DNA of 64,000 bases from Aldrovandia affinis (taxonomy: Eukaryota; Chordata; Actinopteri; Notacanthiformes; Halosauridae). Shown here piece after piece: positions 20,501-48,700 of the stretch. Location: contig JAINUG010000026.1 in NCBI GenBank assembly GCA_029706075.1, positions 5,536,674 through 5,600,673 of the forward strand, given 5' to 3'. The position numbers and the translations under genes were made by a program. Positions within the stretch are counted from its first letter, which is position 1; each line of letters starts with the position of its first letter. Under the pieces are notes generated by a model. It worked only from the letters and a program-made list of their open reading frames with translations. It made no database searches and was not told the DNA's origin.

Positions 20501-23500
20501 TCTCGTGTGACTGATAGCAAAGACCAGTCTACTATTTTATAGTTTAGTTTATAGTTGTGATTGTGTGACTGTGTTTTAAAAGTACCCAAAAAGAGATTTT
20601 CTCACCTGAGATTGTTGGGTACACAGGTTGCATTCGGCTAATTTCATCATTGGACAGTTCTGTCAGGGAGGAGATGAGACCCTCCTGGACGGTATATAGG
20701 CCAGGGAAATCATCAATAGTGTAAGAGAAGTTTGGAACATAGGAAACTAATTGAAGCTCATGGGTATCTACATCTCTGGTTCCAATACTGAAAGGGACCA
20801 CCCCTGACTGCTTTAAGGCCGTAGCTGAACCTCTAATATCATCTGAAGATCTGCCACCTGAGACCACAATCACAAACTGTGGAACACCCTCCGGCCTTCT
20901 ACCACCACGTCCAGGGTTTAAGGCATCCCGGCTAACAAACTCTAGAGCCCTCCCCAAATTACGCTGCCTACCCCCTTTGTGGCTCAGTCCTATGATGCTA
21001 TTTAAAACGCCTTCCTTGGTCGTATGGGAGTTTAGGTCAATGTCCCCCCTTGAATCATCACTGTACTGAACTACACCGATCCGGATTCTGTTCTCCCCAA
21101 TGTTGAGATTTTCCACAACCCTTCGGATGAATTCCTTGATGATTGGGAAATGCTGTGTCGTGGCGTCAGAACCGTCAACCAGGAAGACGACATCCTTCTT
21201 CGGACCCTGGGTCGCAGCTGAAGGGAAAAAAGCAAAATATTCTATTACCCTACAATCACAGACAAATATTCAACCAGAAAACGTTCTGGACAATTCCAGG
21301 GACATTTTAAAACATTCACAAGACTCAAAATCAATCTGGTTCATTTTCATTGCAGTTTCTGATTATTTTAATCACATTAACATAGTGTAGCAAACACTGC
21401 ATATTTCACCGGCTCTTTATTAATGAAATCAGACCAAAAAATACAATATGAACTTCCAGACCCATAAGAGCTTTCTGTACTGCACTGGAATGTATGCCTA
21501 GTAGGGATGTTAATGATTAATCAATGATTGATTCATCGCCGTTAAGAATTTGATCGATCAAGCATATCAAATTAATGATTATGTATCACAGCACAGCGGA
21601 GTTATCCAATAGCACAAACTCTAGTGAGTGTAATAATATTGCTTTGAAACAACAGTTAAAACCTTGTTGATTTTATAAAATATATCTAGCAATATTTCAC
21701 AAAAGAAACAATTTAAGACAAAACACAGCTTTTACACGTTACCTCAGCCGACATTGGCGTGATCACTTGAATTCACTAAGCACACCTAACGTTATTTCCT
21801 CATTTCTCAGAGTTTTTGGTGAAATCTTTTTTTTGGCACAACAGTATTTATGCATCCCCGGGACATCGGTTCTGTCAGAATGGGTGTTCTCAGTGGCTTG
21901 TCTTACTGTAAACAAGCTGTGCACATGGCTCACCCCTGAACATGTGGATATACTTATATTCTTAAATAAAAACCAGTAAGGGGACAAGTCGGGACTCGAA
22001 AGTTAGGAGGTAGGCTTTTTTTTCAAGTTGCCAAGCCTCTGCTGTCGGACAGCCCTTTTAATTTCAAAAGGAATATTGTTTTCATTGTTCATTGTTTCAT
22101 TACTGAATGGTGTTCATTTCCTTCATAATTCTTATTGTTTTATGCTGTTAAAATAGGCCTGTGTCTCAAAGGTTGACTAAAGCTTTGTTTTAGGAAAATA
22201 AATGTGCATTTTGTATTCTTTGTCATATGCTACATTTTGCATTCTTTTTTAAAAAGATTAATCAATTAATTGTTTGTTAACGTGGGCGACAATGGATCAA
22301 GGAAATTTCTTAAAATGAGCATCCCTAATGCCTAGGATATTCCTTTTTTTGTTATTAGTATTCAAGTACATCTACTGTTCCTGGTTGTCATTTATGCAAT
22401 ACCTGCAAATGTCAATGCATTTCTTAAAGGTAATATTGAGGGGGGAAAATGGAGATCAGCACAATCCGAATGGCACAATCCCACCCATACGTTTTGGAAA
22501 AAATACTTTCCCCACAAAATCCTAAAATTCTGTCTGAAATATAAAAAGTAAAATGAAATTGACATTAAGTCTTCCCCTAAATTAAATACATGGATTGATT
22601 GTTCCTTAACAAAAATATGTATTTTTTCTCCTAATTCTGAAGAAAAAGGCTGGCCACCACTCATGAATGGACCCAAGAGAAGTCCCTTAAAAGATTATTT
22701 CATGATAGTAAAGTATTATTTTAGAAACACAAACTGAGTTGTCTCTCTTAAGATATTAAACTAAGAGTACTATATGAGTATTACAGTTACAAATCACAGC
22801 AGGCTTCAATTTAAAGGAGGAAATTGTGGATCGACATTCCATGTTTAAAAGAGGAATGTATGAAAGTTAATAATGGCTGAAAAGTTGCATACTTACCAGT
22901 GAATGCAGATCTTCTTAATGTGGATAACACGTCTATTAAGACATTTGGAAGCTCTCCAAAGTCAATGACTGAGAAAACATAACTCAAATTATATGAAATT
23001 GTTGGAAGTTCCATAGGATTGATGTTCCTGGTTCCAATCGCAATACATGCAATTCCACGCCTTTTCAGGGCAGCGGCTGGTTGAATAACATCATCACTGG
23101 ACGTTCCACCAGTAAGAAATATCAGAATTTGAGGAACACCCACAAGGCGTCTACCTCCAGCGGAAGCAGTAAATACATCTCTATCAACAAACTGGAGGGC
23201 TGCCCCAGTGTTACGGGGCCTTCCTCCTCTGTGTCTGAGAGTTCGTATTTTGTTAATGATACTGTCTTTTGTTGAATATGTATTTAGGTAGAAATTAACT
23301 GCTGGATCCCTACTGTACTGAACTACTGCTACTCTGTCTTTGTTTTCTGCCACTTTGAGGTTCTCCACCACCCTGCGAGTGAAGTCGCGCATTGCAGGGA
23401 ATCCACTTCGACTGCCATCAGAACCGTCAAGGAGAAACACGATGTCTCTTCGATCCATTCCAGATTCCACTAGAGAGAACATTACATAAGTGACTCGTAT

Positions 23501-24677
23501 AAGATATATAAAATCATCGATGTATCGAGACCAATTCTTCAAAGAGGCAAAACATGCTCATGCCTTCTGGTATAGAAATTGGCAATCAAAGACCATTCTG
23601 AAGAAGCAGAGGAGGTGATGTCCAAAACATCATTCATGAAAGCAAGTGTCACGAAGAACTGCATATAGAAGCAAGTCCAGAAAAAAAAAATCAGGAAAAT
23701 TCTGACATTTTCCAAAAATGAGAGGGATATTGTAGCAAGAAAAATGTCAAGGTGAAACAGCAGCAGCTGTACATGCAACATCAGTTGCAAATGTTGAATT
23801 TGCATCAGTTGAAAAGTCATTCATTGTTCTCATTTTGGGGAACAATGCAGTGGTGAGACTGGAAAGATATTACAAGATTTCAAAATGAAATCTTGAGCAT
23901 CAGAAAATATCTTAAAGAAGAAATGTCTATCCTTACCCAAAATGCCTGCACGTCTCTCATAAGTTACTGTGAGCAATGATGAAAACAGCTGTTGTTGCAG
24001 ATTTAAGAGTTCAGAAAAATCCTCAAAAGAAAACGCAAAAGTGGAATTAAATGAAAGTCTCTGAAGCTCTTCGAGGTCTGCATTTTTTGACCCAATAGCC
24101 AACACCACAACTCCTGATCTCCTTGCAGCATTTGCTGCAATTTCAAAGTCATCGCTAGATCTTCCGAGAGTCAACATGACTAATATCTGTGGAACCCCTA
24201 AAAGTCGTCTGCTCCCAGAAGAAGCGGTAAAGATGTTATCTCTAACAAAATGGATAGCTGCCCCAGTGTTGCGAGGTCTTCCTCCTTTGTGCTTCAGAGA
24301 CCTTATTGAATTTAGAACATCAGTTTTTGTTGAGTATGTATTGAGAGAAAAAAATACAATTGGATCACCACTGAACTGTACCACCGCAACTTGGTCCATG
24401 CTGTCATCCAAACTGAGTTTTTCCACTACTACTTGAAGAAAGCTTTTCATTGCTTGGAATCCACTCCTCGAGCTGTCGGAACCATCCACCAGAAATACAA
24501 TGTCTCTTTTGGGCATTTGAGTCCCAGCTGGGAAAGGCATTAGATACAATATTAAAGAAATATCATCAATAAATGTGTTGATTGTCCTAAACGTTTTCCC
24601 CCAAAAATCTAGATCATAAATCTGGATTGGAAACCTTCAGCCGGAAAGGCTGCTCCATAAGAATTATATACATGCAG

Positions 24678-24715
<38 letters not shown>

Positions 24716-27700
24716 GGGGGGGTGTGTCTAAATGTACTGGAAGCATTGTAGAGAATTACAGACACATTGTATAAAGAAAATATTGTAACTGTACAAAAGA
24801 TCTTATATTGGCTTCTGGAGAAAGAAGAGATGCTGAAGATGACATCAGGTTCAAGGAGGGTTACGTAGAAGGAAAGGTCCACTGTTCTCTGTTTAGAGAA
24901 CAATTCAAGCAAATAAAGCATAAATGTAAAAAATGTTCATCAAGATTCATGGCAAATCTTGGGAAGAACTTCTAATGCAAAAAAAGAACCTGTCATGACA
25001 TTTACATTACATTTTAAGCATTTAGCAGACACTCTTATCCAGAGCGACTTACAAGATGTGCATTTATACATGGTAAAAACAATCATAGTTCACGCAAGAG
25101 ATCAGTGCAGTAATACAGCGATAGACATCGTTGTAGGCAGCTGCATACCATACCTGTAACAGTTTTTTTGATTTTTTTGAAGGAGTAAGCAGGGATACAT
25201 ATACAAAAAGTATTAAACAAGTAGGCAGTGGTGATGACAATTGGCTAGATGTACAGAATTCAGTGGTAGTGGAGTCTGGAGTCATGAAACAGTAAAATAT
25301 TTAGAGTATGAAGACGATTCTTAAAATTATGATGAAGACCCCATAAAGTGAGAGAAGCAAGAATAACAAAGTCAATGAATATATTTAAACATAAATAACT
25401 TATCTGTGTAAGACATGACTGAATAAAGCAAATAATGTACGTGAAATAAATATTAATTTGGCGTACGGAGGAAGAAGAGACTACATTTGGGGAGCGAAGA
25501 GAAGAAGGAAAGGTCTTTTGTTTTCCATTTAGAAAACAATAAAGACAAATAAAAGCATAGGTGATAAAACACCCTTCATGATTCCTGACAAATCTTGTGA
25601 GGATTTTGAAATGCAAAAAAAGACAAAGAAACGAATACAAGTGCATGAAAAGGATTCTGGAAGAAAGTGCTGTGTGATTCAAAGAATCCTAAAATATTTA
25701 AATATGCATTAATACATTAGTAACTTTACATCCCAATGTGTTTTCTAGATCAGTACGTATATTGGTTAACCTTGAGTAACTTCACTAATCAAACATGAAC
25801 CCAATATAAAATGTAGAGAGATTGACACAAAACATTCTGCTGGAGGTTTGGAAGGTCAGAAAAGTCAGAGGCCGAGAGAACATATCTCGGATCAAAAGCA
25901 ATCAACTGCAGTTGCATTATAAATATCAAAATGTCTAATTCCAATGGCAATGGACTGAACACCAAGGCAAATGCAGGACTACTGAAATTGTGATTGGACC
26001 ATCCACCATTGAGCAGAATCAGTATCCGTCCAGACAACTGCTAAAAGCAGAAGCGGGAAAGACATTGTCCTTAACAAACTGGAGAGCTGCCCCAGTGTTG
26101 AGGGGTCTTCCTCCTTTGTGTGAAAGGCTTGTTATGGTATCAGTGACATCTCCCTTTGTTGAGAATGTGTCCAGATAGAAATTAGCCTCTGGATCTCTAT
26201 TGTATTAGACCACACACCTTTGTCTTTGTTCTCCTTCACATGTAATTTATCCACTACACATTCAACAAAGCCTAGCATTGCTGGGAATCCATTTCTAGTG
26301 CCATCAGACCCATTCAGAAGGAAAACAACATCCTTCTTGGCCATTTCATAATAAACTGATATAAATGAAGTTGTAGACAAATAACCCATCAACTCAAAAC
26401 TTATGGAAAATGTAATGCTATCGTACCCACAGCGTTATAATAAACAAGAATACATAGAGAAATAATTATATTTCATGAAATTGAAACGTAAACCCTTCTT
26501 AGTTGAAGTCAAGTATAAATTCCTAGTCAACGTCATTGACATAGTAATGCATTCCAAATCGAGAGTCAAAAATGATAACATTATTTTGGTTAACTAACAA
26601 CCTGGGCCCGTATTCACAAAGCATTTTAAGGGTAAAAGTTGGTCCTAACTGCGAAATTTAGGAGGAAGTCCGAAAAATAATGGGCGTGTCACTCATAAAT
26701 TTAGGACTAGGGGTTTGGGTTTGAGAGCTAAAAAGTCCAGGAGAAGTTAAAAGCAGCCAAGAGGACTTCTAAGTCGCTAAAGACCTACTCACGGCGATCC
26801 GAAAATCTGCTGCGGCCGGCAATCGTTGTCGCAATCGCGTCAACACTGGAGATATTGAATGATACAGAGCTCATAAAAGGTACAGCCTCAATCGCGAGGG
26901 TATTATATATATAATATTATATATATTATATATAGATACCCGCTGATTGTTTACGAGATGCAGACATGTAACCAATTGACTAGTCAGTATTCTTGGTTTC
27001 ATGTTAAATCAGTGACACGTAGCCTACATTTGTATTTTAGAATCTTTATTAGAATATAATAGGGGTGCATCGGATCATTTTTCGGATCAGCAAAAAAAAT
27101 AATAACGGGACCAAAGGCGCGTTTCCACCAAAAATTGCCTGGAACTATTTTCAAGGAATTGAACGAATGATCATTTCAGTTTTTCAATTTAAGTTATTTC
27201 ACTAAATCTTTATTCAAAACGCCTTAGGCGATTTAACTAGGGTGGTCTTATGCCTGAATTAATTTAATTTAAAAAAAGATAAAAGATAAAAGAATGTTTC
27301 AATTCTATTTAATTCGGTCGCGTTTCTCATGCCTCCATGAAAGGCATTTACCTGATGTTCAAATAAAACAGATATCTTCCAAGAAATTAATGAAAAATGT
27401 AAAAAGCAGAATTAGAACGGAAAGGCACTGACATACCTATAACGGTTGGTGCTTCAGTTGTCATACGGACAACTACGGTGTCAACAGAGGAAAGAAGCTG
27501 CTGTTGGATATTGGGCAGGTCACTGAATTCTGACACTGAAAGTGCGTAACTGGGATCATGGGAAATCTTTTGCAATTCTCTACTATCAGAGCTCCGTGTC
27601 CCAATTCCAAAGATCAACACTCCAAGTTCTTTCAGTGCAGAAGCTGGTGAATCTACATTATCGAAAGACCTTCCACCAGTCAGCAGAATCAGTATCTGAG

Positions 27701-30700
27701 GAACACCTTCCAGACGTCTGCTCCCAGCAGAAGCAGTAAAGACATTGTCCTTAACAAACTGGAGAGCTGCCCCAGTGTTGAGGGGTCTTCCTCCTTTGTG
27801 TTTAAGGTTTCTTATGGTAACATTGACATCTCCCTTTGTTGAATATGTGTTCAGATAGAAATGAGCCTCTGGATCTCTGCTGTACTGGACCACAGACACT
27901 CTGTCTTTGTTCTCCTCCACATTCAGTTTGTCCACTACTCTTTGAACAAAGTCTCGCATTGCTGGGAATCCATTTCTAGTGCCATCAGACCCATCCAGAA
28001 GGAACACAACATCCTTTTTGGCCATATCATAATCAACTGAGAAAAATTAAATTCAAGACATAGAATCGGTCAATTTAACACATATTGGATTATTTTATGC
28101 CATCAAATGCACCGAATTTTCACATGAACAGGAATGCACTGTATACTATATATATATATATATTCGGCTATGAATTCTAACTTAACATCATTGACATAGT
28201 AATGCATTCCAAATCGTCAGTCAAAAATGATAACATTATTTTGGCTAACTAACAACCTGATGTTCAAATAAAACAGATATCTTCCAAGAAATTAATGAAA
28301 AATGTAAAAAGCAGAATTAGAACGGAAAGGCACTGACATACCTATAACGGTTGGTGCTTCAGTTGTCATACGGACAACTACGGTGTCAACAGAGGAAAGA
28401 AGCTGCTGTTGGATATTGGGCAGGTCACTGAATTCTGACACTGAAAGTGCATAACTAGGATCATGGGAAATCTTTTGCAATTCTCTACTATCAGAGCTCC
28501 GTGTCCCAATTCCAAAGATCAACACTCCAAGTTCTTTCAGTGCAGAAGCTGGTGAATCTACATTATCGAAAGACCTTCCACCAGTCAGCAGAATCAGTAT
28601 CTGAGGAACACCTTCCAGACGTCTGCTCCCAGCAGAAGCAGTAAAGACATTGTCCTTAACAAACTGGAGAGCTGCCCCAGTGTTGAGGGGTCTTCCTCCT
28701 TTGTGTTTAAGGTTTCTTATGGTAACATTGACATCTCCCTTTGTTGAATATGTGTTCAGATAGAAATGAGCCTCTGGATCTCTGCTGTACTGGACCACAG
28801 ACACTCTGTCTTTGTTCTCCTCCACATTCAGTTTGTCCACTACTCTTTGAACAAAGTCTCGCATTGCTGGGAATCCATTTCTAGTGCCATCAGACCCATC
28901 CAGAAGGAACACAACATCCTTTTTGGCCATATCATAATCAACTGAGAAAAATTAAATTCAAGACATAGAATCGGTCAATTTAACACATATTGGATTATTT
29001 TATGCCATCAAATGCACAGAATTTTCTCATGAACAGGAATGCACTGTATACTATATATATATTCGGCTATAAATTCTTACTTAACATCATTGACATAGTA
29101 ATGAATTCCAAATCGTCAGTCAAAAATGATAACATTATTTTGGCTAACTAACAACCTGATGTTCAAATAAAACAGATATCTTCCAAGAAATTAATGAAAA
29201 ATGGAAAAAGTAGAATTAGAACGGAAAGGCACTGACATACCTATAACGGTTGGTGCTTCAGTTGTCATACGGACAACTATGGTGTCAACAGAGGAAAGAA
29301 GCTGCTGTTGGATATTGGGAAGGTCACTGAATTCTGACACTGAAAGTGCGTAACTAGGATCATGGGAAATCTTTTGCAATTCTCTACTATCAGAGCTCCG
29401 TGTCCCAATTCCAAAGATCAACACTCCAAGTTCTTTCAGTGCAGAAGCTGGTGAATCTACATTATCGAAAGACCTTCCACCAGTCAGCAGAATCAGTATC
29501 TGAGGAACACCTTCCAGACGTCTGCTCCCAGCAGAAGCAGTAAAGACATTGTCCTTAACAAACTGGAGAGCTGCCCCAGTGTTGAGGGGTCTTCCTCCTT
29601 TGTGTTTAAGGTTTCTTATGGTAACATTGACATCTCCCTTTGTTGAATATGTGTTCAGATAGAAATGAGCCTCTGGATCTCTGCTGTACTGGACCACAGA
29701 CACTCTGTCTTTGTTCTCCTCCACATTCAGTTTGTCCACTACTCTTTGAACAAAGTCTCGCATTGCTGGGAATCCATTTCTAGTGCCATCAGACCCATCC
29801 AGAAGGAACACAACATCCTTTTTGGCAATATCATAATCAACTGAGAAAAATTAAATTCAAGACATAGAATTGGTCAATTTAACACATATTGGATTATTTT
29901 ATGCCATCAAATGCACAGAATTTTCACATGAACAGGAATGCACTGTATACTATATATATATTCGGCTATAAATTCTTACTTAACATCATTGACATAGTAA
30001 TGAATTCCAAATCGTCAGTCAAAAATGATAACATTATTTTGGCTAACTAACAACCTGATGTTCAAATAAAACAGATATCTTCCAAGAAATTAATGAAAAA
30101 TGAAAAAAGTAGAATTAGAACGGAAAGGCACTGACATACCTATAACGGTTGGTGCTTCAGTTGTCATACGGACAACTACGGTGTCAACAGAGGAAAGAAG
30201 CTGCTGTTGGATATTGGGAAGGTCACTGAATTCTGACACTGAAAGTGCGTAACTAGGATCATGGGAAATCTTTTGCAATTCTCTACTATCAGAGCTCCGT
30301 GTCCCAATTCCAAAGATCAACACTCCAAGTTCTTTCAGTGCAGAAGCTGGTGAATCTACATTATCGAAAGACCTTCCACCAGTCAGCAGAATCAGTATCT
30401 GAGGAACACCTTCCAGACGTCTGCTCCCAGCAGAAGCAGTAAAGACATTGTCCTTAACAAACTGGAGAGCTGCCCCAGTGTTGAGGGGTCTTCCTCCTTT
30501 GTGTTTAAGGTTTCTTATGGTAACATTGACATCTCCCTTTGTTGAATATGTGTTCAGATAGAAATGAGCCTCTGGATCTCTGCTGTACTGGACCACAGAC
30601 ACTCTGTCTTTGTTCTCCTCCACATTCAGTTTGTCCACTACTCTTTGACAAAGTCTCGCATTGCTGGGAATCCATTTCTAGTGCCATCAGACCCATCCAG

Positions 30701-33700
30701 AAGGAACACAACATCCTTTTTGGCCATATCATAATCAACTGAGAAAAATTAAATTCAAGACATAGAATCGGTCAATTTAACACATATTGGATTATTTTAT
30801 GCCATCAAATGCACAGAATTTTCACATGAACAGGAATGCACTGTATACTATATATATATTCGGCTATAAATTCTTACTTAACATCATTGACATAGTAATG
30901 CATTCCAAATCGTCAGTCAAAAATGATAACATTATTTTGGCTAACTAACAACCTGATGTTCAAATGAAACAGATATCTTCCAAGAAATTAATGAAAAATG
31001 GAAAAAGTAGAATTAGAACGGAAAGGCACTGACATACCTATAACGGTTGGTGCTTCAGTTGTCATACGGACAACTACGGTGTCAACAGAGGAAAGAAGCT
31101 GCTGTTGGATATTGGGAAGGTCACTGAATTCTGACACTGAAAGTGCGTAACTAGGATCATGGGAAATCTTTTGCAATTCTCTACTATCAGAGCTCCGTGT
31201 CCCAATTCCAAAGATCAACACTCCAAGTTCTTTCAGTGCAGAAGCTGGTGAATCTACATTATCGAAAGACCTTCCACCAGTCAGCAGAATCAGTATCTGA
31301 GGAACACCTTCCAGACGTCTGCTCCCAGCAGAAGCAGTAAAGACATTGTCCTTAACAAACTGGAGAGCTGCCCCAGTGTTGAGGGGTCTTCCTCCTTTGT
31401 GTTTAAGGTTTCTTATGGTAACATTGACATCTCCCTTTGTTGAATATGTGTTCAGATAGAAATGAGCCTCTGGATCTCTGCTGTACTGGACCACAGACAC
31501 TCTGTCTTTGTTCTCCTCCACATTCAGTTTGTCCACTACTCTTTGAACAAAGTCTCGCATTGCTGGGAATCCATTTCTAGTGCCATCAGACCCATCCAGA
31601 AGGAACACAACATCCTTTTTGGCCATATCATAATCAACTGAGAAAAATTAAATTCAAGACATAGAATTGGTCAATTTAACACATATTGGATTATTTTATG
31701 CCATCAAATGCACAGAATTTTCTCATGAACAGGAATGCACTGTATACTATATATATATTCGGCTATAAATTCTTACTTAACATCATTGACATAGTAATGA
31801 ATTCCAAATCGTCAGTCAAAAATGATAACATTATTTTGGCTAACTAACAACCTGATGTTCAAATAAAACAGATATCTTCCAAGAAATTAATGAAAAATGG
31901 AAAAAGTAGAATTAGAACGGAAAGGCACTGACATACCTATAACGGTTGGTGCTTCAGTTGTCATACGGACAACTATGGTGTCAACAGAGGAAAGAAGCTG
32001 CTGTTGGATATTGGGAAGGTCACTGAATTCTGACACTGAAAGTGCGTAACTAGGATCATGGGAAATCTTTTGCAATTCTCTACTATCAGAGCTCCGTGTC
32101 CCAATTCCAAAGATCAACACTCCAAGTTCTTTCAGTGCAGAAGCTGGTGAATCTACATTATCGAAAGACCTTCCACCAGTCAGCAGAATCAGTATCTGAG
32201 GAACACCTTCCAGACGTCTGCTCCCAGCAGAAGCAGTAAAGACATTGTCCTTAACAAACTGGAGAGCTGCCCCAGTGTTGAGGGGTCTTCCTCCTTTGTG
32301 TTTAAGGTTTCTTATGGTAACATTGACATCTCCCTTTGTTGAATATGTGTTCAGATAGAAATGAGCCTCTGGATCTCTGCTGTACTGGACCACAGACACT
32401 CTGTCTTTGTTCTCCTCCACATTCAGTTTGTCCACTACTCTTTGAACAAAGTCTCGCATTGCTGGGAATCCATTTCTAGTGCCATCAGACCCATCCAGAA
32501 GGAACACAACATCCTTTTTGGCCATATCATAATCAACTGAGAAAAATTAAATTCAAGACATAGAATCGGTCAATTTAACACATATTGGATTATTTTATGC
32601 CATCAAATGCACAGAATTTTCTCATGAACAGGAATGCACTGTATACTATATATATATTCGGCTATAAATTCTTACTTAACATCATTGACATAGTAATGCA
32701 TTCCAAATCGTCAGTCAAAAATGATAACATTATTTTGGCTAACTAACAACCTGATGTTCAAATAAAACAGATATCTTCCAAGAAATTAATGAAAAATGTA
32801 AAAAGCAGAATTAGAACGGAAAGGCACTGACATACCTATAACGGTTGGTGCTTCAGTTGTCATACGGACAACTACGGTGTCAACAGAGGAAAGAAGCTGC
32901 TGTTGGATATTGGGAAGGTCACTGAATTCTGACACTGAAAGTGCGTAACTAGGATCATGGGAAATCTTTTGCAATTCTCTACTATCAGAGCTCCGTGTCC
33001 CAATTCCAAAGATCAACACTCCAAGTTCTTTCAGTGCAGAAGCTGGTGAATCTACATTATCGAAAGACCTTCCACCAGTCAGCAGAATCAGTATCTGAGG
33101 AACACCTTCCAGACGTCTGCTCCCAGCAGAAGCAGTAAAGACATTGTCCTTAACAAACTGGAGAGCTGCCCCAGTGTTGAGGGGTCTTCCACCCTTGTGT
33201 GAAAGGCTTCTTATGGTATTAGTGACATCTCCCTTTGTTGAATATGTGTTCAGATAGAAATGAGCCTCTGGATCTCTGCTGTACTGGACCACAGACACTC
33301 TGTCTTTGTTCTCCTCCACATTCAGTTTGTCCACTACTCTTTGAACAAAGTCTCGCATTGCTGGGAATCCATTTCTAGTGCCATCAGACCCATCCAGAAG
33401 GAACACAACATCCTTTTTGGCCATATCATAATCAACTGAGAAAAATTAAATTCAAGACATAGAATTGGTCAATTTAACACATATTGGATTATTTTATGCC
33501 ATCAAATGCATAGAATTTTATCATGAACAGAAATGGACTGTATACTATATATATATCTGGCTATAAATTCTTACTTAACATCATTGACATAGTAATGAAT
33601 TCCAAATCGTCAGTCAAAAATGATAACATTATTTTGGCTAACTAACAACCTGATGTTCAAATAAAACAGATATCTTCCAAGAAATTAATGAAAAATGTAA

Positions 33701-36700
33701 AAAGTAGAATTAGAACGGAAAGGCACTGACATACCTATAACGGTTGGTGCTTCAGTTGTCATACGGACAACTACGGTGTCAACAGAGGAAAGAAGCTGCT
33801 GTTGGATATTGGGAAGGTCACTGAATTCTGACACTGAAAGTGCGTAACTAGGATCATGGGAAATCTTTTGCAATTCTCTACTATCAGAGCTCCGTGTCCC
33901 AATTCCAAAGATCAACACTCCAAGTTCTTTCAGTGCAGAAGCTGGTGAATCTACATTATCGAAAGACCTTCCACCAGTCAGCAGAATCAGTATCTGAGGA
34001 ACACCTTCCAGACGTCTGCTCCCAGCAGAAGCAGTAAAGACATTGTCCTTAACAAACTGGAGAGCTGCCCCAGTGTTGAGGGGTCTTCCTCCTTTGTGTT
34101 TAAGGTTTCTTATGGTAACATTGACATCTCCCTTTGTTGAATATGTGTTCAGATAGAAATGAGCCTCTGGATCTCTGCTGTACTGGACCACAGACACTCT
34201 GTCTTTGTTCTCCTCCACATTCAGTTTGTCCACTACTCTTTGAACAAAGTCTCGCATTGCTGGGAATCCATTTCTAGTGCCATCAGACCCATCCAGAAGG
34301 AACACAACATCCTTTTTGGCCATATCATAATCAACTGAGAAAAATTAAATTCAAGACATAGAATTGGTCAATTTAACACATATTGGATTATTTTATGCCA
34401 TCAAATGCACAGAATTTTCTCATGAACAGGAATGCACTGTATACTATATATATATTCGGCTATAAATTCTTACTTAACATCATTGACATAGTAATGCATT
34501 CCAAATCGTCAGTCAAAAATGATAACATTATTTTGGCTAACTAACAACCTGATGTTCAAATAAAACAGATATCTTCCAAGAAATTAATGAAAAATTAAAA
34601 AGTAGAATTAGCACTGAAAGGAACTGACATACCTCTAATGCTTGGTGCTTCTGTTGTCATACGGACAACTATGGTGTCAACAGAGGAAAGAAGCTGCTGT
34701 TGGATATTGGGAAGGTCACTGAATTCTGACACTGAAAGTGCGTAACTAGGATCATGGGAAATCTTTTGCAATTCTCTACTATCAGAGCTCCGTGTCCCAA
34801 TTCCAAAGATCAACACTCCAAGTTCTTTCAGTGCAGAAGCTGGTGAATCTACATTATCGAAAGACCTTCCACCAGTCAGCAGAATCAGTATCTGAGGAAC
34901 ACCTTCCAGACGTCTGCTCCCAGCAGAAGCAGTAAAGACATTGTCCTTAACAAACTGGAGAGCTGCCCCAGTGTTGAGGGTCTTCCTCCTTGTGTTAAAG
35001 GCTTCTTATGGTATTAGTGACATCTCCCTTTGTTGAATATGTGTTCAGATAGAAATGAGCCTCTGGATCTCTGCTGTACTGGACCACAGACACTCTGTCT
35101 TTGTTCTCCTCCACATTCAGTTTGTCCACTACTCTTTGAACAAAGTCTCGCATTGCTGGGAATCCATTTCTAGTGCCATCAGACCCATCCAGAAGGAACA
35201 CAACATCCTTTTTGGCCATATCATAATCAACTGAGAAAAATTAAATTCAAGACATAGAATTGGTCAATTTAACACATATTGGATTATTTTATGCCATCAA
35301 ATGCACATAATTTTCTCATGAACAGGAATGCACTGTATACTATATATATATTTATATTCGGCTATGAATTCTTACTTAACATCATTGACATAGTAATGCA
35401 TTCCAAATCGTCAGTCAAAAATGATAACATTATTTTGGCTAACTAACAACCTGATGTGCAAATGAAACAGATATCTTCCAAGAAATTAATGAAAAATGGA
35501 AAAAATAGAATTAGAACGGAAAGGAACTGACATACCTATAACGGTTGGTGCTTCAGTTATCATACGGACAACTATGGTGTCAACAGAGGAAAGAAGCTGC
35601 TGTTGGATATTGGGAAGGTCACTGAATTCTGACACTGAAAGTGCGTAACTGGGATCATGGGAAATCTTTTGCAATTCTCTACTATCAGAGCTCCGTGTCC
35701 CAATTCCAAAGATCAACACTCCAAGTTCTTTCAGTGCAGAAGCTGGTGAATCTACATTATCGAAAGACCTTCCACCAGTCAGCAGAATCAGTATCTGAGG
35801 AACACCTTCCAGACGTCTGCTCCCAGCAGAAGCAGTAAAGACATTGTCCTTAACAAACTGGAGAGCTGCCCCAGTGTTGAGGGGTCTTCCTCCTTTGTGT
35901 TTAAGGTTTCTTATGGTAACATTGACATCTCCCTTTGTTGAATATGTGTTCAGATAGAAATGAGCCTCTGGATCTCTGCTGTACTGAACCACAGACACTC
36001 TGTCTTTGTTCTCCTCCACATTCAGTTTGTCCACTACTCTTTGAACAAAGTCTCGCATTGCTGGGAATCCATTTCTAGTGCCATCAGACCCATCCAGAAG
36101 GAACACAACATCCTTTTTAGCAATATCATAATCAGCTGAAAATATTAAATTCAATTGAACAGACTAATATTTTAATCTTAAACTTACAACTATAATTATA
36201 ACATATTTTATGCCATCAAATCAGAGAAAATCAGATTTTCACATGAATTTGATTGAAAAAGAATGCACTGCTGTTTTAATCTCGGAGCCTTGAGCATAGT
36301 CCAGCAGGATGACAGGAACTAACATAGTAACATCATTTATATTAAACAAAATTTACAAATTAGTCCAAATTGGATGGGTTTCATTTAAAATAAATAAAAC
36401 ATTATTTTGGAACACAACTAACAACCTTGATGAATAAAAACACAAATCAGCAAATATCTGTTCTTTGAAATTCTTTTTGAACTTCAAATAAAAGATTCAA
36501 TCAAATGATTATTTGTTTCACAAACTGGCTGAGAACCACACCCCGAATATACACGTGTGAAATTAACATAATGGTACAGTGATTAATTTAACTCACCTAA
36601 GCTTGTTCTGGTTGCCTGCTTGTGAGAAGCAACTGATAACAGTAATGGTTGTATAGGAGATGAGAGATCAGAAAATGTGAGACCAGAAAATGCATAACTT

Positions 36701-39700
36701 GGGTCATGTGAAATTATCTGCATCTCTACTATCAGCATTCTTGTCCCAATGCCCAAAGATCAACACTCCAGTTTCTTTCAAAGCAGTTGCTGGTCCTCTA
36801 ACATCATCTCTGGACCTTCCACCAGTCAGCAGAATCAGTATCTGAGGAACACCTTCCAGATGTCTGCTCCCAGCAGAAGCAGTAAAGACATTGTCCTTGA
36901 CAAACTGGAGAGCTGCCCCAGTGTTGAGGGGTCTTCCTCCTTTGTGCATTAAAAGCCTGATTCCATTCATGACATCACTCTTTGCTGCATAGGTGTTTAG
37001 ATAAAAATTTGCAGTTGGGCCATCACTGTACTGTACCACAGCAGCTCGAACTTGGTTTTCCCCAATGTTGAGATTTTCCATGAATCGACCAATGAAATCA
37101 CGAATCATGGGGAATTCATCCCTGATTTCATCAGATCCATCAAGTAGAAACACAACATCCATCGTTCCAGAATCTGATTCAAAGATGAAGTACATGACAT
37201 TTTAAATGCAGAAAGTAAGAAAACTAAAGAGCAAAGAGAAGCCACGTTTCACAACCTTCTTCAGCAGTATGTAATCTTAACCATTGCTCAGATACTAAGT
37301 GATATGAATCTTATTATCTCATGAAAGCCAAAACTACAAAAAAAAGTTATATTTTAAATCTTAAATTACTTCAAAATGATAAGTTCACAAATAACCCCAT
37401 TCTTACCAAAGAGGTCAGGTGATTCAGGGAGCATTTCCTGAACACCACTCATGACAGATGTAATTTTTTCTTGAACACTTTCAAGATTTTTAAAATCAGC
37501 AACAGAAAAAGCATGACTAGGTGTGAAAGATATGGTTTGTAACTCCAGGGTATCAGCATTCCTTGTTCCAATTCCAAAGGCTTTGATTTCGTTCTTTTTC
37601 AGAGCTTGTGCCGGACCCCTGATGTCATCACCAGATCGACCCCCACTGAGAACAATCAAAATCTGAGGAACACCTTCCAGTCGTCTGCTCCCAGAAGAAG
37701 AGGTGAATACATTGTCTATAACAAACTGGAGAGCTGCTCCAGTGTTCAGGGGTCTTCCTCCTTTATGCCTCATGAATCTTATAGAACTGAGCACATCACT
37801 CTTGACTGAGTATGAATTGAGATAGAAATTGGCAGTAGCATCTCTGCTATACTGGATCAGGGCAACCTGATCTTTGTTGTCGTCCATATTGAGTTTGTCC
37901 ACTATTCTTTCAATAAAGCGACGAACTCCCTCAAAACCATTTCTAGTGTCATCTGATCCATCAAGAAGGAACACAACATCCCTTTTCATGGATTCGGAGT
38001 CTGTAATTAATTACAGGACACAATGAAACAAGTATAAGTGCAACGATCAGTGCTACATTATAGCCTACATTTGTTTAAAAAGGAAGAACCTCATATGTTA
38101 ATGAGACTTTAATTCAGATCCACAAATATTCTTGACATATTTTTCACTTGTTTCTAAAATGACTACAGCAAAACCAAAACCATCCAAACTCAAGAAACTG
38201 GTAAATGTATTAAGAATGTTACATAAATATACAGCAAACACATTATCTTACCGAAGCCTTTAGATGTTATTGTTGATTTGTGATAAGATACGTCCTTAAC
38301 CAGAGAAAAAAGCTCCTGTTGTATTGTGGGAAGTTCCCCAAAATCAGTAATGGATAAAGTGTATTTTGGATCATAGGCTATTGTTTGTATCTCAAGTGTG
38401 TCAGCATTTTCAGTACCAATGCTGAATGGAACAACTCTGGTTTCTTTTAAAGCAGTTGCTGGACCTCTTATGTCATCTCTAGACCTTCCACCAGTCAGCA
38501 GAATCAGTATCTGAGGAACACCTTCAAGACGTCTGCTCCCAGCAGAAGCAGTAAAGACATTGTCCTTAAGAAACTGGAGAGCTGCCCCAGTGTTGAGGGG
38601 TCTTCCTCCTTTGTGCCTCAAGCCTCGTATGGCATCAAGGATGTCTTCTTTTGCCAAGTATGTGTTCAGATAGAAGTTTGCTTCAGGATTATCACTGTAC
38701 TGGACCACAGAAAATCTGTTCTCCCCATCATATTTCTCAACAATACCTCGGACAAAGTCACAGATTACTGGGAATCGGGTCCTTGAGTCATCAGAGCCAT
38801 CAAGTAAAAACACAATGTCTCTTTTTCCACCGTCTGTTGCAAGCATAAACATTTACAAAAAAGATATATGTTAATGCATATTGGTTTGTTATGTGATCAT
38901 CGTCATATTCATATTATTATAATCATCACTGTTATCATGCAATATTCAGCATTCTCTCTTGGGTATTGTGGCTAGGGATGTCACGGTACAACTGTTTTAC
39001 AATATTCTTTTGTATTAAATTAAATTTGAGAGCAATCAATCTGTAAACATTTCTAAATTATTGAATTTATGATAATGGAATACCATAGTATTGAATGATA
39101 GTTGGATTGCCATGGTTCAATTAAAGCTCCCAGAAAAACTGTTTCACTCTGTTACAAGAATTGGCAAGTGTATATGGTGAACATGTACTCTGTGTGTGTC
39201 AATCAGTGTTTGTAGTATTAACTCATGCGTAGTCCTGCTAACGCCAGAATGCATCTGTGCATCATATCAATATATAAGAGGCTTATTCCTGTTTGAGAGT
39301 GCTGTCCTTTCCCTCTCTCTTTTTAACCTGGAAGATGAAAGGAAGTATTCTGTTTTTAAGTCATTATGTCACATTTTTTCATTATTTACAACTTTGTATT
39401 ACTGTATTGTTATCACAATTGTTTGGGAAATTACAACTTTCTCATTCTGTAGATTTATATGTTTTGTATTATTTCCTAATCCATATTACCAGGATATCCA
39501 GTTTAACTGTAGATAACAAAATAGTTGTTTGTATTCAATTGCTTTAGGCAACTCTTCATGTTGAAGATCCCACTGTATTCCATTATTTACCTCTCTGCAC
39601 TGGCTCCCCATTCCAGCACACATCAGATTCAAATCACTGCTTGCTTTTCAAGCGGCTAGAGCAGGGGTCGGCAACCCATAACACTCAAAGAGCCATTTGG

Positions 39701-42700
39701 ACCCGGTTTCCACGGAAAAGAAAACACTGGGAGCCGCACCATTTTCTGTCGACGGGGTGCAAATGAAAAAAAGCGGAAAATTGGATACTTATTATTTATT
39801 TTCCCAAGCCACGCGGAGCCGCAACATAAGGCTGAAAGAGCCGCATGCGGCTCCGGAGCCGCAGGTTGCCGACCCCTGGGCTAGAGGTACTGCTCCCCCA
39901 TACCTCCAGTCACTCATCACTCCCTACACCCCAGCCAGACCCCTCTGCTCTGCCTCCTCTGGCAAACTGACTGTCCCAGCCAGGCAGCCACTCCTCGCGG
40001 TCTCATCTCTTCTCTGTCCTGACCCCTCGGTGGTGGAACGACCTTCCGCAATCGGTCAGGACCACGGAATCACTTGCGATCTTCCACACAAGACTGCAAC
40101 CCACCTTTTCAGACTCCACTACCACTGAATTCTGTACATCTAGCTACTTGTCATCACCACTGCCTAATTTCTCAACACTATGTATCCCCACTTACTCCTA
40201 ATTTACTTCGCCTTCGTCACTACCGGTCGCAGGACTACGGCAGCGAACTCACATTACTAGGGGGGGATTGACATAAAATAGCGGGTATAATTGGCTACTA
40301 AATTGGGAGAAAATGGGAGAAAATCTGAAACAAAAGCTTAAAAAAAAATATATATAATAATAATAATAATAATATTACTAACCTTTTCCTTCCCAGTGTT
40401 ACAGGTATGGTACGCAGCTCCTGCAATGATGTCTATCGCTGTATTACTGCACTGATCTCTTGCGCGAACTATGATTGTTCCTAACATGTATTTATGCACA
40501 TCTTGTAAGTCGCTCTGGATAAGAGCGTCTGCTAAATGCTTAAAATGTAAAATGTAAATGTCTATATCAGGTACAAACTGATTGATCATTGCTTTCTGTG
40601 GCCAGTTATTCCATCAAAATGTCATACCGTGACATCCCCACAACTGTATTACTTCCATTATTCTTCATGCAATTAAACATTTACATGACAAATTAATGCT
40701 ATTATAACTGAAAAAGTATGTAAACAACATTTTTGAATGTATGGCAGTGAAAATGAAAATAAGTTTGTATCAGGCATGATTTACAAAACACTGAACTGCA
40801 GTTTCTGTCAATCATTAATTGGCAAATTAATGCTTGTATTTGCACAAGTATGCTTTCCTTACCGCTCACTGTGGTTGAGTCAATGGAGGTGAGTTTTGTG
40901 ATTTTTATCATTTCTGAAAAAACTTGCTGTTGAACACTTGGGAGATCGTAGAAATTGGGAATGGAGAAAGCATAGCTGGGCTCATGAGAAATCATTTGTA
41001 GCTCAAGTGTATCTGCGTTCCTCACACCAACCACCAATGGAATGACTCCAACGTCCTTTAAATTTGTAATGGCACTTTGTACATCATCACTGGACTTTCC
41101 ACCAGTCAGCAGAATCAGTATCTGAGGAACACCTTCCAGACGTCTGCTCCCAGCAGAAGCAGTAAAGACATTGTCCTTAACAAACTGGAGAGCTGCCCCA
41201 GTGTTGAGGGGTCTTCCTCCTATGTGTGAAAGGCTTCTTATGGTGTCAGTGATGTCTTCCTTTGTTGAGTATGTGTTCAGATAGAAATGAGCCACTGGAT
41301 CTCTGCTGTACTGGACCACAGACACTCTGTCTTTGTCCTCCTCTAAGATAAGTTTTTCCACTACATTTTTAACAAAGTCTCTTATTGACTCAAATCCATT
41401 CCAAGTTTCATCAGAACCATCCAGTAAAAACACAATATCCCTTTGTATTGTGTCTGATTTGACTAGAGGGTATATCAATATAAATTAGTCAGGAATATCC
41501 ACAACAAATACTCAGTTTATACATTGTATTGACCTTTTCAAGCATGCCACTCAGAAAGTCACCAACTAAAACATGTTTAGGTGTTAATATTGTTTAACAA
41601 ATGTGTGGCTTGTTATTTCACAAAATTCTAACATTTCCTACAATTATGATGGAAATCAAAGGTCAGTGAACCCAACCATCATAACAGATCAATACACTTC
41701 ATGCAGGCCTAAATGTATTCCAGAGACTAAGTAGAAAATATGTGTGCATGTAATGAATATCCCAGAGAAAATATTAAAACCATAACACTTAAAACAGTTA
41801 ACATTTAAAAAATTTAAAATAAGTGAAAACAATATATCTAACATTGAAAATTGTTGCAACCATCAAATATCAGTTCTTACCTACAACAGTTGGTGGATTT
41901 GGTCTCGCCAGACGAGGCACACTTTTAACAAATGATAAAAGCTGCTGATCAACCCTCCGCAGATGATCAAATCCAGGGACAGACAACGCATAGCTGGGGT
42001 TGTGTGAGATCACCTGTAGCTCAATTATATCTGCATTCCTTGTCCCAATAGTGAGTGGCACAATGCCATCCTCCTTCAGAGTCGATGCAGGCATGCTAAC
42101 ATCATCCTCAGACCTCCCACCACTCAGCAGAATCAGTATCTGAGGAACACCTTCCAGACGTCTGCTCCCAGCAGAAGCAGTAAAGACACTGTCCTTAACA
42201 AACTGGAGAGCTGCCCCAGTGTTGAGAGGCCTTCCTCCTTTGTGTGAAAGGCTTCTTATGGTATCAGTGACATCTCCCTTTGTTGAGTATGTGTTCAGAT
42301 AGAAATTAGCCTCTGGTTCTCTGCTGTACTGGACCACAGACACTCTGTCTTTGTTCTCCTCCACATTCAGTTTCTCCACTACTCTTTGAACAAAGTCTCG
42401 CATTGCTGGGAATCCACTCCTAGTGCCATCAGACCCATCCAGCAGAAACACAATGTCTCTCTGTGCTGCATCTAGTTCAACTAAGACACAACGAACAACC
42501 TAATTAATAATAACAGATATCATTCAAATATAACAGAAGCAAGAATAATTAAGTGTATAAACCATAAACTGTTTAAACCAAATAATTTACTCAGTATCAA
42601 TCACTGCTCCAATGAAAATAATACATTAATGGAATTGCATGTAGCTTATATTACATTTCTTCAATCAAAGTTTGTGATGGTTTGGGTGTCTTGTTAAACA

Positions 42701-45700
42701 ATGCATATATTTCAAAATAGACAAGAGGTAAGCAGACAATGAATAAATTAAGTGCAATTGTTCTATTATGGAAAGGAAAACAAGAGAAAATAATGAAAAA
42801 CTGGAAGATGAAGTCTCGTCTGTACAAGATGTAAATAACAGTCTCTAGGAAAACATAGAACCTGATATTTCAGGTTCTATGGGAAAATCATACTTACTTT
42901 CATGTTTTAAGGAAAATCTATCAAAAATGATGACATTAAAAATATTTTCTCTGTAGTAATGTAGTGCTAATTCAATGAATAAGAGGGGCAGGAAACCAAG
43001 TTTAAGCATATTTTTAAAGAAGCAAGAGAGGGCCTGAACAAGACTAGTGTTTCTCCAGAGCAAAGAAGTGTTTACATTTAGAACAGCCAGGCAATGATAT
43101 GGAAATCATTGGCTCAAGGAAGAGCAAAGTGCATAAATGGAGCCTGGTGCTCACAAGCATCATTTTCCGGACGGTTTATCCGAAAGGTAACTTGTGAAGT
43201 TCTCACCGGGAGAATAAGAAAAGGGAAGAGCCTCAGATGTAAACAAAACACATATCTACATTTTGTTTACCTGAACAAGACTGTGGATATAGACAGGATA
43301 TCCACTCCAATAAAAACTCTAGAGTCTCAAGAATGAGTAGACAGTTTGAAATGGATGAAACTGATCAATTGCTTTTTTTCTTCCAATGATAAAGCAGTTT
43401 CATAAGTATTCAAACCAGCTGAGAGCAGTAGCTGATAGGAAAATAAGATCTGAAAGAAGTCTGCATGTTACTGTTCACTGAGTGTGAATGGCAGTTTTTC
43501 TTACCAACAATAGTTGGAGGCTCAACTCCCATTTTTGATTTGATAAAGGAAAGGATCTCTGGTTGAATGGATAGGAGTTCACCAAAGACAGGCAAATTGA
43601 AAAGAAACCTGGAAGTGTAGGATATGCTCTGGAGCTCGTTTTCTTCCGCATTTTTCAACCCAATGGCAAAAGACAGAACTCCAAGGCCTTTCAGGTCAGC
43701 AGCGGGACCCGTGACGTCATCATTTGACCTTCCGCCCGTCAAAACAAACAAAATCTGAGGAACACCTTCCAGACGTCTGCTCCCAGCAGAAGCAGTAAAG
43801 ACATTGTCCTTAACAAACTGGAGAGCTGCCCCAGTGTTGAGAGTACTTCCTCCTTTGTGTCTCAGGCTTCTTATGGTATCAGTGACATCTCCCTTTGTTG
43901 AGTATGTGTTCAGATAGAAATTAGCCTCTGGTTCTCTGCTGTACTGGACCACAGACACTCTGTCTTTGTTCTCCTCCACATTCAGTTTCTCCACTACTCT
44001 TTGAACAAAGTCTCGCATTGCTGGGAATCCACTCCTAGTGCCATCAGACCCATCCAGCAGAAACACAATGTCTCTCTGTGCTGCATCTAGTTCAACTAAG
44101 ACACAACGAACAACCTAATTAATAATAACAGATATCATTCAAATATAACAGAAGCAAGAATAATTAAGTGTATAAACCATAAACTGTTTAAACCAAATAA
44201 TTTACTCAGTATCAATCACTGCTCCAATGAAAATAATACATTAATGGAATTGCATGTAGCTTATATTACATTTCTTCAATCAAAGTTTGTGATGGTTTGG
44301 GTGTCTTGTTAAACAATGCATATATTTCAAAATAGACAAAGAGGTAAGCAGACAATGAATAAATTAAGTGCAATTGTTCTATTATGGAAAGGAAAACAAG
44401 AGAAAATAATGAAAAACTGGAAGATGAAGTCTCGTCTGTACAAGATGTAAATAACAGTCTCTAGGAAAACATAGAACCTGATATTTCAGGTTCTATGGGA
44501 AAATCATACTTACTTTCATGTTTTAAGGAAAATCTATCAAAAATGATGACATTAAAAATATTTTCTCTGTAGTAATGTAGTGCTAATTCAATGAATAAGA
44601 GGGCAGAAACCAAGTTTAAGCATATTTTTAAAGAAGCAAGAGAGGGCCTGAACAAGACTAGTGTTTCTCCAGAGCAAAAGAAGTGTTTACATTTAGAACA
44701 GCCAGGCAATGATAGGAAATCATTGGCTCAAGGAAGAGCAAAGTGCATAAATGGAGCCTGGTGCTCACAAGCATCATTTTCCGGACGGTTTATCCAAAGG
44801 TAACTTGTGAAGTTCTCACCGGGAGAATAAGAAAAGGGAAGAGCCTCAGATGTAAACAAAACACATATCTACATTTTGTTTACCTGAACAAGACTGTGGA
44901 TATAGACAGGATATCCACTCCAATAAAAACTCTAGAGTCTCAAGAATGAGTAGACAGTTTGAAATGGATGAAACTGATCAATTGCTTTTTTTTCTTCCAA
45001 TGATAAAGCAGTTTCATAAGTATTCAAACCAGCTGAGAGCAGTAGCTGATAGGAAAATAAGATCTGAAAGAAGTCTGCATGTTACTGTTCACTGAGTGTG
45101 AATGGCAGTTTTCTTACCAACAATAGTTGGAGGCTCAACTCCCATTTTTGATTTGATAAAGGAAAGGATCTCTGGTTGAATGGATAGGAGTTCACCAAAG
45201 ACAGGCAAATTGAAAAGAAACCTGGAAGTGTAGGATATGCTCTGGAGCTCGTTTTCTTCCGCATTTTTCAACCCAATGGCAAAAGACAGAACTCCAAGGC
45301 CTTTCAGGTCAGCAGCGGGACCCGTGACGTCATCATTTGACCTTCCGCCCGTCAAAACAAACAAAATCTGAGGAACACCTTCCAGACGTCTGCTCCCAGC
45401 AGAAGCAGTAAAGACATTGTCCCTAACGAACTGGAGAGCTGCCCCAGTGTTGAGGGTACTTCCTCCTTTGTGTCTCAGGCTTCTCACTGCATACACCACA
45501 TCCTTCTTGGTTTTATGAGTCATTAGGTAAAAGTAAGGTGAAGCGTCATTGCTGTACTGGACAACAGCAACTCGAACATTGTCCCCGTCAATGTCAAGGT
45601 CTTCAGCCATCCTTCGAATGAATTCTCGCATCGCAGGCAATCCATTCCTGGAGTCATCGGACCCATCAAGCAGAAACACAACATCCCTTTTGATGCCTCC

Positions 45701-48700
45701 TGTATCAATTAGGATTTATGAAAAACAGGAATGGGAGTATGGATCATTAATCGGTGAAATATAACCCACCTATACTATAATAAAGAATAACTAAAGTTGA
45801 ATCTTCCCCTACAATTCCCATGTTCTTATTTCTACTGTTCTATGCAAAGCATTTCCCAAGAATCTGAAAGAATGACTTGTGCATTGTTATTAAAAACAGA
45901 CTTTAAGAAATCCATTACTGCAATCATGTGTTAAATAACAGCCGGTAGAGAAAATATAAAGAGCTCCTTTATATTTAGTTTATATAACATCTAAAAACAT
46001 TTTCATTTATCTAACTGCAAGACCATAAAAGGTTAAAAGATTAAATTGTATTTGAAAGCAGGCACTTTAACGGTATGCAGAAGAAATCAAGGGCCTGTCA
46101 AGGTCCCATCTTTTCAAAAGAAAAGACAATTATTTTCTAAGAGGAAGACAGACAAAAATGGTCTTGGACCAGAATGAAGAAGAAATGTAAGAAGAGCACT
46201 GCCATGGATTTCCAAAGAAGATGCGTCCATGACTGCAGCTGTCATGAAATAAATAATTGAATGGGCATATGTTCAGAAATGATGAATAATTACACAGAAA
46301 ATACATTTGTCCGTTTGCTTTATATGACATTATGTACGAGGTATGTAAATGTACAATGTGGGTGTGCAAGCATGTGTGAAGCATGTGGATGCAATGCATT
46401 TTAACATTAAATTAAAGGCACAATCTGTTTTTTCTAATGTTCCTGAAATCCATAGACTTACATTTCAGCATTATTTCCCAGATTGAATGTACAGTCCATT
46501 TATTTTCCATTACTAAAACCCATACTGCTGTTCTCCCTATTACTGGAATTCCTGGGGTTTCATCTGTACCTTTAGAAAAGCTCTTAATTGTGGCAACAAT
46601 CTGGTTTTGGATTGAGGGCAGGTCAGAAAACCCTGAAATCTGGTAGGTAAATCTGGGTTTGAAGGAAATCATTTCAAGCTCTTGCTGATCAGCACTTCCC
46701 ACTCCAGTGGCAAATGGCATAACTTCAAGATCTTTAAGAGCTACTGCTGGGCCCCTAACATTGTCCCTGGATTTCCCACTAGTCAAAAATATCAGTAACT
46801 GAGGAACACCCTTGAGTCGTCTGATCCCAGAAGAAGCAATAAAGATGTTGTGCCTAATGAACTGGAGAGCGTTTCCAGTGTTGAGCGTTCTCCCTCCTTT
46901 GTGCCTCAAGTTTCTTATGGTATCAGTGACTTCCTTCGTTGAGTATGTATTCAGATAGAAATGAGACACTCTGACTTTGTTCTCTCCCACATTCAGTTTC
47001 TGCACTACTCTTTGAACAAAATCTCACATTGCTGGGAATTGATTCACAGTGCCATCAGAACCATTCAGCAGAACCACAATGCCTTTGCTTACATTTTCCA
47101 CATGAACTGAGGCAAAATGAATAGAGGACATTGAGATAACAAACAGTGCTTCATCAACCCAGCAGCAACATCATTGCAAAACAGCCACATTTCTGCAAAA
47201 CAACCCATCTTACAGCACACAAAATGAAATTCAGCTTACCTTGTGCCAGAAGGGTTGTCAAGTCATGTGTGGGAAGGCTGACGAAACTCCCCAGTCGCTG
47301 TTGAACCGTGTTCAGCTGGCTGAAGTCCTTCACGTTGAATGCAAAGGAAGGATTGTGGGAGATGGCCTCAATCTGACTGCGGTCTGCGTTCTTCACCCCT
47401 ACGCCGAAGGGCACGACTCCACCTGTCTTCAGTGCCCCAGCAGCTTCTCTCACGTTGTCCCTCGACCTGCCCCCGGTCAGAACGATCAGGAACTGGGGTA
47501 CATTCTTATCCGCTCTGCTGCCTCTCTCCAGCGAGAGAACATTGTCCTTCATGAATGTCAGTGCTGCTCCTGTGTTCAGACTTCGGCCACCAGCCAGTCT
47601 CAGGCCGTTGATAGCCTCAGTCACCTCCTCTCTGGTATTGTAAGTGTTCAGGTAGAAGTTGGGCGATGGGCTCTCACTGTGCTGGACCACAGAAACCCGC
47701 ACTTTATTGATTCCAACATCAAGAGGTTCGATCACTTTTAGAATGAAATCCCGGATGTAGGGGAAGTCACTTCCTACGGCATCAGAGCCGTCAATCAGAA
47801 ATGCCACGTCCCTCGCAGATTCATGAATAACCTCTTCCACTGCAAAGGAAGGCATACATTGAAAGTCTGCTAACCCTGAAACCTTCTCCAAGTGTTTATC
47901 ACATGCAATTTATGTTTATCACAGCAGATTATCCCTGGAAGCAAATTACCCAACAAAAATTTAGCCAAATAAATTCAATATGCCGCCAAAAGGAGTCACT
48001 GACAGCTGTTTTGCCTGAATAAATTGCAAGTATAGAAGAACCCAAACAAACCAAAACACAATTTGGAGCGCTCACCTTCAATAGTTTCAATGATGGTGTC
48101 TGTGTCTCCCACCACCGTGATTAAAGGTGTGAAAAGCTGTTCAATGACACCTGGCAGGCTGTCAAATCTGCTCACATAATAAGCCATGGAGGGAACGAAG
48201 GCAACGGTCGTCAGGAAGTTTTCGTCCGCCTGGCCGACGCCAACTGCATAGGTCAGAACGCCTGCCAGGGCAACTTTGTCTGCAGTCCGTTTGACCTCAT
48301 CCTGAGGAGGACCTCCCGTGATGAGAACTGCTGCTTGTGCGACCCCTTGCCTTCTCCTGGACCCAGCTGAAGCCTGAAAGTGGTTGGCCAAGGCATACTC
48401 TAGTGCCGCCCCTGTGTTCAGAATGTTTCCTCGCATTGGACTAAGCCGGGCTACGGCATCCAGGACGTCCTGCCTGTTGTTATAGCTGTTCAAGTAAAAC
48501 TCGGTGCGCTGGTCCCTCGCAAACTGCATCAAACCAATCTGCACCCTGTCCGGGCGCACTTCCAGCTTGTTCACTATTCTGGAGATTAAGTCGCGCACAT
48601 ATGCGAAGCCGGCTTCATCAACGTAGGCTGACCCGTCCACCAGAAAGACGATGTCTCGGATGATACGCTGGGTCTCCACCGTGGTTATTTCAATAACTGT

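Follow-up and report, generated by a model that had tools for sequence, protein, structure and literature searches.

The stretch analysed here, hereafter the window, comprises 64,000 nucleotides of the Aldrovandia affinis genome (G000:C1756:5536674-5600673; assembly of 1.22 Gb in 2,576 contigs) and carries on its minus strand col6a3, the gene for the alpha-3 chain of collagen VI. Mammalian COL6A3 has ten N-terminal von Willebrand factor A (vWA) domains, numbered N10 to N1. In the window, 21 extra vWA exons lie between X47, the exon in the N6 position, and N5 (Table 1). The array probably arose as vWA exons of N5 type multiplied within col6a3 in this lineage, with the intact extras at least partly translated.

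An array of N5-type exons, most of them intact

All 21 exons were found at about the coordinates given in the initial annotation. Sixteen are open over 573-600 nt and span X22 to X45, while X46, X36, R2, R7, and X25.9 are broken, a split that agrees in number with the three frameshifted and two decayed exons called earlier. The intact extras contribute 3,168 residues and the nine other intact vWA exons 1,814, counting the shorter N8 end. With N1 of about 200 residues, the arm would reach roughly 5,180 residues if every readable exon were spliced, so the earlier estimate of more than 5,000 is arithmetically right.

All 25 intact vWA exons (16 extras and nine others) score best with a phase-1 donor, and 22 of them also score best with a phase-1 acceptor. 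As the intact extras have symmetrical 1-1 phases and lengths divisible by three, any number of them can be added or skipped in frame.

Exon R3 was modelled using 17 window exons and is predicted to adopt a vWA fold (predicted local distance difference test score, pLDDT, 92.5). The top match of the model in the PDB was alpha-3 N5 (4igi; template modelling score 0.88, root-mean-square deviation 0.9, 47% identity). By sequence, R3 scores about equally against N3 (151.9) and N5 (148.9), and X41 is the extra closest to N5. The first loop of the metal ion-dependent adhesion site (MIDAS), the only loop tabulated, departs from DxSxS in 15 of the 16 intact extras, reading DGSDG in R3. Passages of the report on alpha-3 N5 describe a domain that lacks a conserved MIDAS and whose C-terminal extension allows a beads-on-a-string arrangement (PMC3919171). 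Each of the eight intact R exons except R4 has one N-glycosylation motif, which R4 lacks because of its patch of older-copy type. X23 is the sole intact extra with a DxSxS first loop (DGSDS) and may differ in ligand binding.

Other origins for these open frames were considered. Chance open frames are ruled out by Pfam VWA scores of 150-161 bits against a cut-off of 23.8 in the four of the 16 intact extras that were submitted. The shared strand and phase speak against a separate nested gene, although the scan for a second signal exon covered just the region upstream of N10. Had the gene been duplicated as a second haplotype, a near-identical vWA exon should surface on another contig, and there was none among 77 matches; the best elsewhere, among the longer ones, was 39% identical and lay on contig C1966.

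Growth of the array and apparent selection on its exons

The ten intact extras entered in the tree form one clade (98/92); six near-identical R copies (R4-R6 and R8-R10) had been left out of the tree. Its bootstrap had not quite converged (0.988), and of the 21 inner branches 12 lack resolution. Three layers of growth can be distinguished. The oldest consists of X45, X41, X40, X38, X37, X23, and X22, which group in the one clade together with X43 and those R units that were entered, and whose silent sites are near saturation outside a central segment. A later layer is a 1.6-kb tandem duplication (window 42138-43871 and 43753-45484; 99.0% identity over 1,737 columns), both ends of which lie inside exons, thus producing X43 as a chimeric in-frame vWA exon. 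The youngest layer comprises ten R units spaced 896-905 bp apart and mostly 97-100% identical over 300-nt stretches, R2 excepted. They appear to be young or else recently homogenised.

Exchange between copies is suggested by several observations. R2 and R4 have in common a patch of older-copy type. In codon columns 84-120, the seven old copies and R3 show 0.24-0.30 silent differences per site versus 0.52-0.89 elsewhere. A run test, from which the chimera X43 was left out, placed the longest shared tract in these columns (X40/R3, 116 nt; 0 of 1,000 permutations). Gene conversion is the likeliest cause of the homogenised segment.

Outside this segment, the ratio of nonsynonymous to synonymous rates (dN/dS) between copies, again without X43, is 0.18-0.40 with a median of 0.25 (over the 18 of 28 pairs in which dS was finite; ten dropped). 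The exons of old copies are 67-79% identical, and their 200-nt intron flanks align at the level of shuffled sequence in seven of eight hand-picked pairs. In the eighth pair, the X41/R3 downstream flank, the score was 18, which was also the best of 200 shuffles. Among the young units R3 and R5-R9, variable sites number 4 of 600 in the exon versus 14 of 258 in the intron (Fisher, 3e-5; R2 and R10 left out). Together, the dN/dS of about 0.25, the unalignable introns, and the low exon variation favour long-term use of the extras over decay.

These same data bear on whether the array might be present in the gene but skipped, with X47 (or N7) joined directly to N5 and the extras left as drifting relics in a large intron. 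The symmetrical phases would permit such skipping, five of the 21 extras are broken, with R2 and R7 among them retaining intact splice sites, and mammals splice out N domains, according to parts of PMC5402720. However, drifting relics would not be expected to show the dN/dS of about 0.25 that separates the old copies (in 18 of 28 pairs). Introns have become unalignable while the exons stay open and alignable, and exon variation lies below intron variation in the young array, so that we regard complete skipping as unlikely. A related but distinct alternative is that tissues include different subsets of the extras, the broken exons serving as poison exons. It is compatible with, and overlaps, a translated expansion. 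The intact extras are interchangeable in frame, broken exons with intact splice sites are at hand, and alternative splicing of alpha-3 N domains is known (PMC5402720, in part). Against this, exons R3-R10 hardly differ outside the R4 patch, and choosing among them would alter length more than binding; we hold such a cassette to be possible, though less probable than not.

The exon count might also be partly an artefact of assembly, the 899-bp array having been over- or under-expanded and single-base lesions being sequence errors. The R units are alike enough to invite such errors (mostly 97-100% over 300-nt stretches, R2 excepted), and the R7 exon differs from R3 and R6 solely by its deletion. 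Yet seven distinct sequences occur among the eight intact R exons, and R3 and R6, whose exons match, show differences at 10 of 234 sites in the intron. The window has a single N gap (100 N at 250-349). No close R match was found on another contig, a weak point as one search missed the array's own units. An assembly error cannot yield the seven intact divergent extras (X45, X41, X40, X38, X37, X23, and X22). We give this explanation little credence.

Several observations weigh against a translated expansion of N5-type exons or qualify it. X43, X41, and X22 have their best-scoring acceptor in phase 0, phase-1 acceptors also being present, and acceptors are weak (3.9-5.7) in seven extras (X45, X43, X41, X40, X38, X37, and X22), that of N4 scoring 4.4. 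Splice sites are intact in R2 and R7, and X36 keeps a strong donor, though these exons are broken. Inclusion of all 21 extras would give a null allele. For the gene to work, the broken exons would have to be left out in splicing, unless their lesions are sequence errors, as may be the case for R7. The contrast between exon and intron variation shrinks when R4 is added (12/600 vs 14/258, p = 0.015) or both R4 and R1 (17/600 vs 19/258, p = 0.0045), and gene conversion may add to this contrast, mimicking selection. Silent differences in columns 84-120 are also somewhat low against N5 (0.51-0.77; elsewhere 0.62-1.06). The run-test control on nine other exons returned one match (N9/N3, 21 nt, global p 0.003), thus short runs can arise from constraint too. 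Mouse N5 finds X43, X37, X45, and X41 (167-169 bits) marginally before the window N5 (166), so the N5 label rests on that exon's own best match (169.0 bits) and its position. The extras are of N5 type, and position is part of the basis for choosing the true N5 exon. Finally, mammalian N regions are reported to form a compact C-shape (parts of PMC4777857), which bears on the shape of the arm.

Gene identity and the N6 position

The window gene is col6a3, its outline complete from signal peptide to Kunitz domain. On the minus strand, the order is signal exon, N10, N9, N8, N7, X47, array, N5, N4, N3, N2, and a piece of N1. Beyond the N1 piece, where the triple helix would be expected, a few Gly-X-Y stretches were seen by eye at 12.7-14.8 kb. 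Two vWA domains, an FN3 domain, and a Kunitz domain follow downstream of the window (Pfam VWA, VWA, fn3, and Kunitz_BPTI), the last having alpha-3 Kunitz chains among its matches alongside others. The mammalian alpha-3 chain 9han_C, whose domains we numbered by order, counting back from N1, was the first listed match for all seven N-region queries. N7, N5, N4, and the N1 piece each match their own 9han_C domain best and at the expected place, which identifies the gene as col6a3. The set of ten N-terminal domains with an N6 was not found; the gene carries 25 intact vWA exons in its N-terminal part in addition to N1. The departure from ten concerns number, not gene identity.

The initial annotation had placed conserved N10-N6 and N5-N1 on either side of the array. 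This holds by sequence match for N9, N7, N5, N4, and the N1 piece, and by order for N10, N8, N3, and N2, with human motifs that we take to be shared as further support for N10, N3, and N2. Mammalian N8 scores 147 bits against both the N8 exon and R3, and thus the N8 label rests on order. The signal-peptide exon presumably resembles the human signal peptide. The scheme fails at N6. X47, the exon before the array that had been called N6, scores 162.6 bits against 9han_C N5 and 145.3 against N7, versus 92.4 against N6. Mammalian N6 itself has N4 as its first match (147 bits), and no better-matching exon turned up. N6 would seem either to have been lost or replaced, or else to have been altered beyond recognition.

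Two further open frames lie near or within the gene. A transposase fragment (window 61303-61773, minus strand; Pfam DDE_3, 52.3 bits), which we take to be Tc1/mariner-like, is located upstream of the signal-peptide exon, and open frames resembling it by eye occur in L010 at 3164-3700 and 3772-4152. An open frame of 148 codons on the plus strand (window 39682-40128), between X38 and X40, had no Pfam match.

Table 1. Exons of the A. affinis col6a3 N-terminal region in window coordinates, listed in order of transcription
Feature	Position	Strand	Remarks
Signal-peptide exon	60526..60610	-	Followed by GTAAGT donor; sole match of scan at its thresholds; phase-1 donor 12.5
N10 vWA exon	58578..59198	-	DSSWS in first metal-site loop; labelled by order and presumed human motif
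N9 vWA exon	54173..54769	-	Found first by mammalian N9; groups with N9 (99/98)
N8 vWA exon	49891..50493	-	Two weak donors, 49891 or 49924; hand-chosen
N7 vWA exon	48076..48696	-	Best to 9han_C N7, 150.3 bits
X47, in N6 position	47240..47839	-	N5-like by sequence; outside clade of extras
X46, broken extra	46570..47106	-	Position by first donor; in-frame TGA, 30-nt deletion
X45, intact extra	45118..45699	-	
X43, intact extra	43505..44095	-	Chimera of X41 (5') and X45 (3')
X41, intact extra	41881..42480	-	
X40, intact extra	40863..41453	-	Acceptor set by hand; alternative acceptor 41462
X38, intact extra	38252..38833	-	
X37, intact extra	37407..38000	-	
X36, broken extra	36597..37173	-	Frameshifts, stop; GTGAGT donor retained; acceptor picked by eye
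R1, intact extra	35536..36135	-	First unit of 899-bp array
R2, broken extra	34633..35230	-	Net 2-nt deletion adjoining putatively converted patch
R3, intact extra	33735..34334	-	Modelled in 3D
R4, intact extra	32836..33435	-	Putatively converted patch
R5, intact extra	31937..32536	-	
R6, intact extra	31038..31637	-	
R7, broken extra	30140..30738	-	1-nt deletion, splice sites intact
R8, intact extra	29241..29840	-	
R9, intact extra	28342..28941	-	
R10, intact extra	27437..28036	-	Last array unit
X25.9, decayed extra	25750..26355	-	Low end approximate; many indels and stops
X23, intact extra	23937..24527	-	
X22, intact extra	22897..23469	-	
N5 vWA exon	20606..21217	-	Best to 9han_C N5, 169.0 bits
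N4 vWA exon	19466..20071	-	Best to 9han_C N4, 206.7 bits (wider frame)
N3 vWA exon	18665..19270	-	Label by order
N2 vWA exon	17576..18184	-	Label by order
N1, first part, open frame	16389..16874	-	Sole PDB match 9han_C 1661-1776, E 5e-25; no Pfam match

Proposed role and comparison with known systems

If the expansion is translated, some or all of the 16 intact exons would be spliced into the alpha-3(VI) mRNA and yield N5-like domains. These would sit beads-on-a-string in the distal arm, outside N1-N5, and make the flexible arm longer by as many as 3,168 residues. Inclusion of any of the five broken exons would lead to premature stops, and these exons would be skipped in frame. Passages of PMC5402720 indicate that assembly needs at least five N-terminal domains, that distal alpha-3 N domains can be spliced out, and that the less defined tail of the bead is tied to the N-terminal vWA domains. 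Extra density near N1 has been taken to be, in all likelihood, the flexible N2-N9 region (PMC12354898, in part), and the mammalian N regions described in parts of PMC4777857 did not show self-association and have possible partner surfaces. Since the array enters just outside N1-N5, the extra domains should least disturb assembly. A bulkier tail or a longer projecting arm with more surface is a plausible outcome, and changed bead spacing a less plausible one. It is also conceivable, though we put it forward tentatively, that the 899-bp units still turn over, so that their count differs among individuals and species. Arm length would then vary by about 200 residues per unit, and splicing would add a second layer of variation.

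Faults in collagen VI cause muscular dystrophy. If unit number does vary in this way, collagen VI would offer a natural length series for testing what the projecting arm does in muscle and skin. The distal alpha-3 arm is poorly understood, being flexible and unresolved in the microfibril maps of PMC12354898 and PMC5402720, as far as the consulted parts of these papers go. A vertebrate in which this arm has more than doubled, and has seemingly long been kept by purifying selection, would allow arm length to be set apart from the assembly of microfibrils. It would serve as a natural experiment in how fibres of the matrix make contact with their partners. The array would also illustrate clearly how exons are born, die, and undergo conversion within one structural gene.

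No col6a3 expansion was described in the titles and abstract openings of the literature matches listed, which covered open papers, fish col6a3 annotations being outside scope. The consulted part of a zebrafish paper names a single col6a3, with the word vWA absent from it (PMC6934817).

The window gene shares with mammalian alpha-3(VI) its gene order, a signal peptide, N domains encoded by one exon each, the N5-type fold, and C-terminal vWA, FN3, and Kunitz domains, but differs in having 16 intact N5-type extras before N5 and no recognisable N6. For mammals, Dziadek reportedly described in 2002 (reference 55 of PMC5402720) that alpha-3 N domains are alternatively spliced. There too whole vWA domains of the distal arm are left out; in mammals this is shown by transcripts, whereas in the window gene it is permitted by exon phase alone. 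The alpha-4, alpha-5, and alpha-6(VI) chains, with seven N-terminal vWA domains according to parts of PMC12354898, are likewise long chains but are encoded at separate loci. On contig C1966 (L013-L016) lie two groups of vWA domains, each domain in one exon, with no more than 39% identity to an R query; they are perhaps alpha-4/5/6(VI)-type genes, or else a second col6a3. MUC16 likewise shows repeated-domain growth in a secreted protein. The expanded vWA proteins of the pearl oyster represent a similar growth of a domain family, there as genes and not as exons of one gene (PMC5597905, in part). Judged by its identity features the window gene is a col6a3, and its domain number appears new relative to known col6a3.

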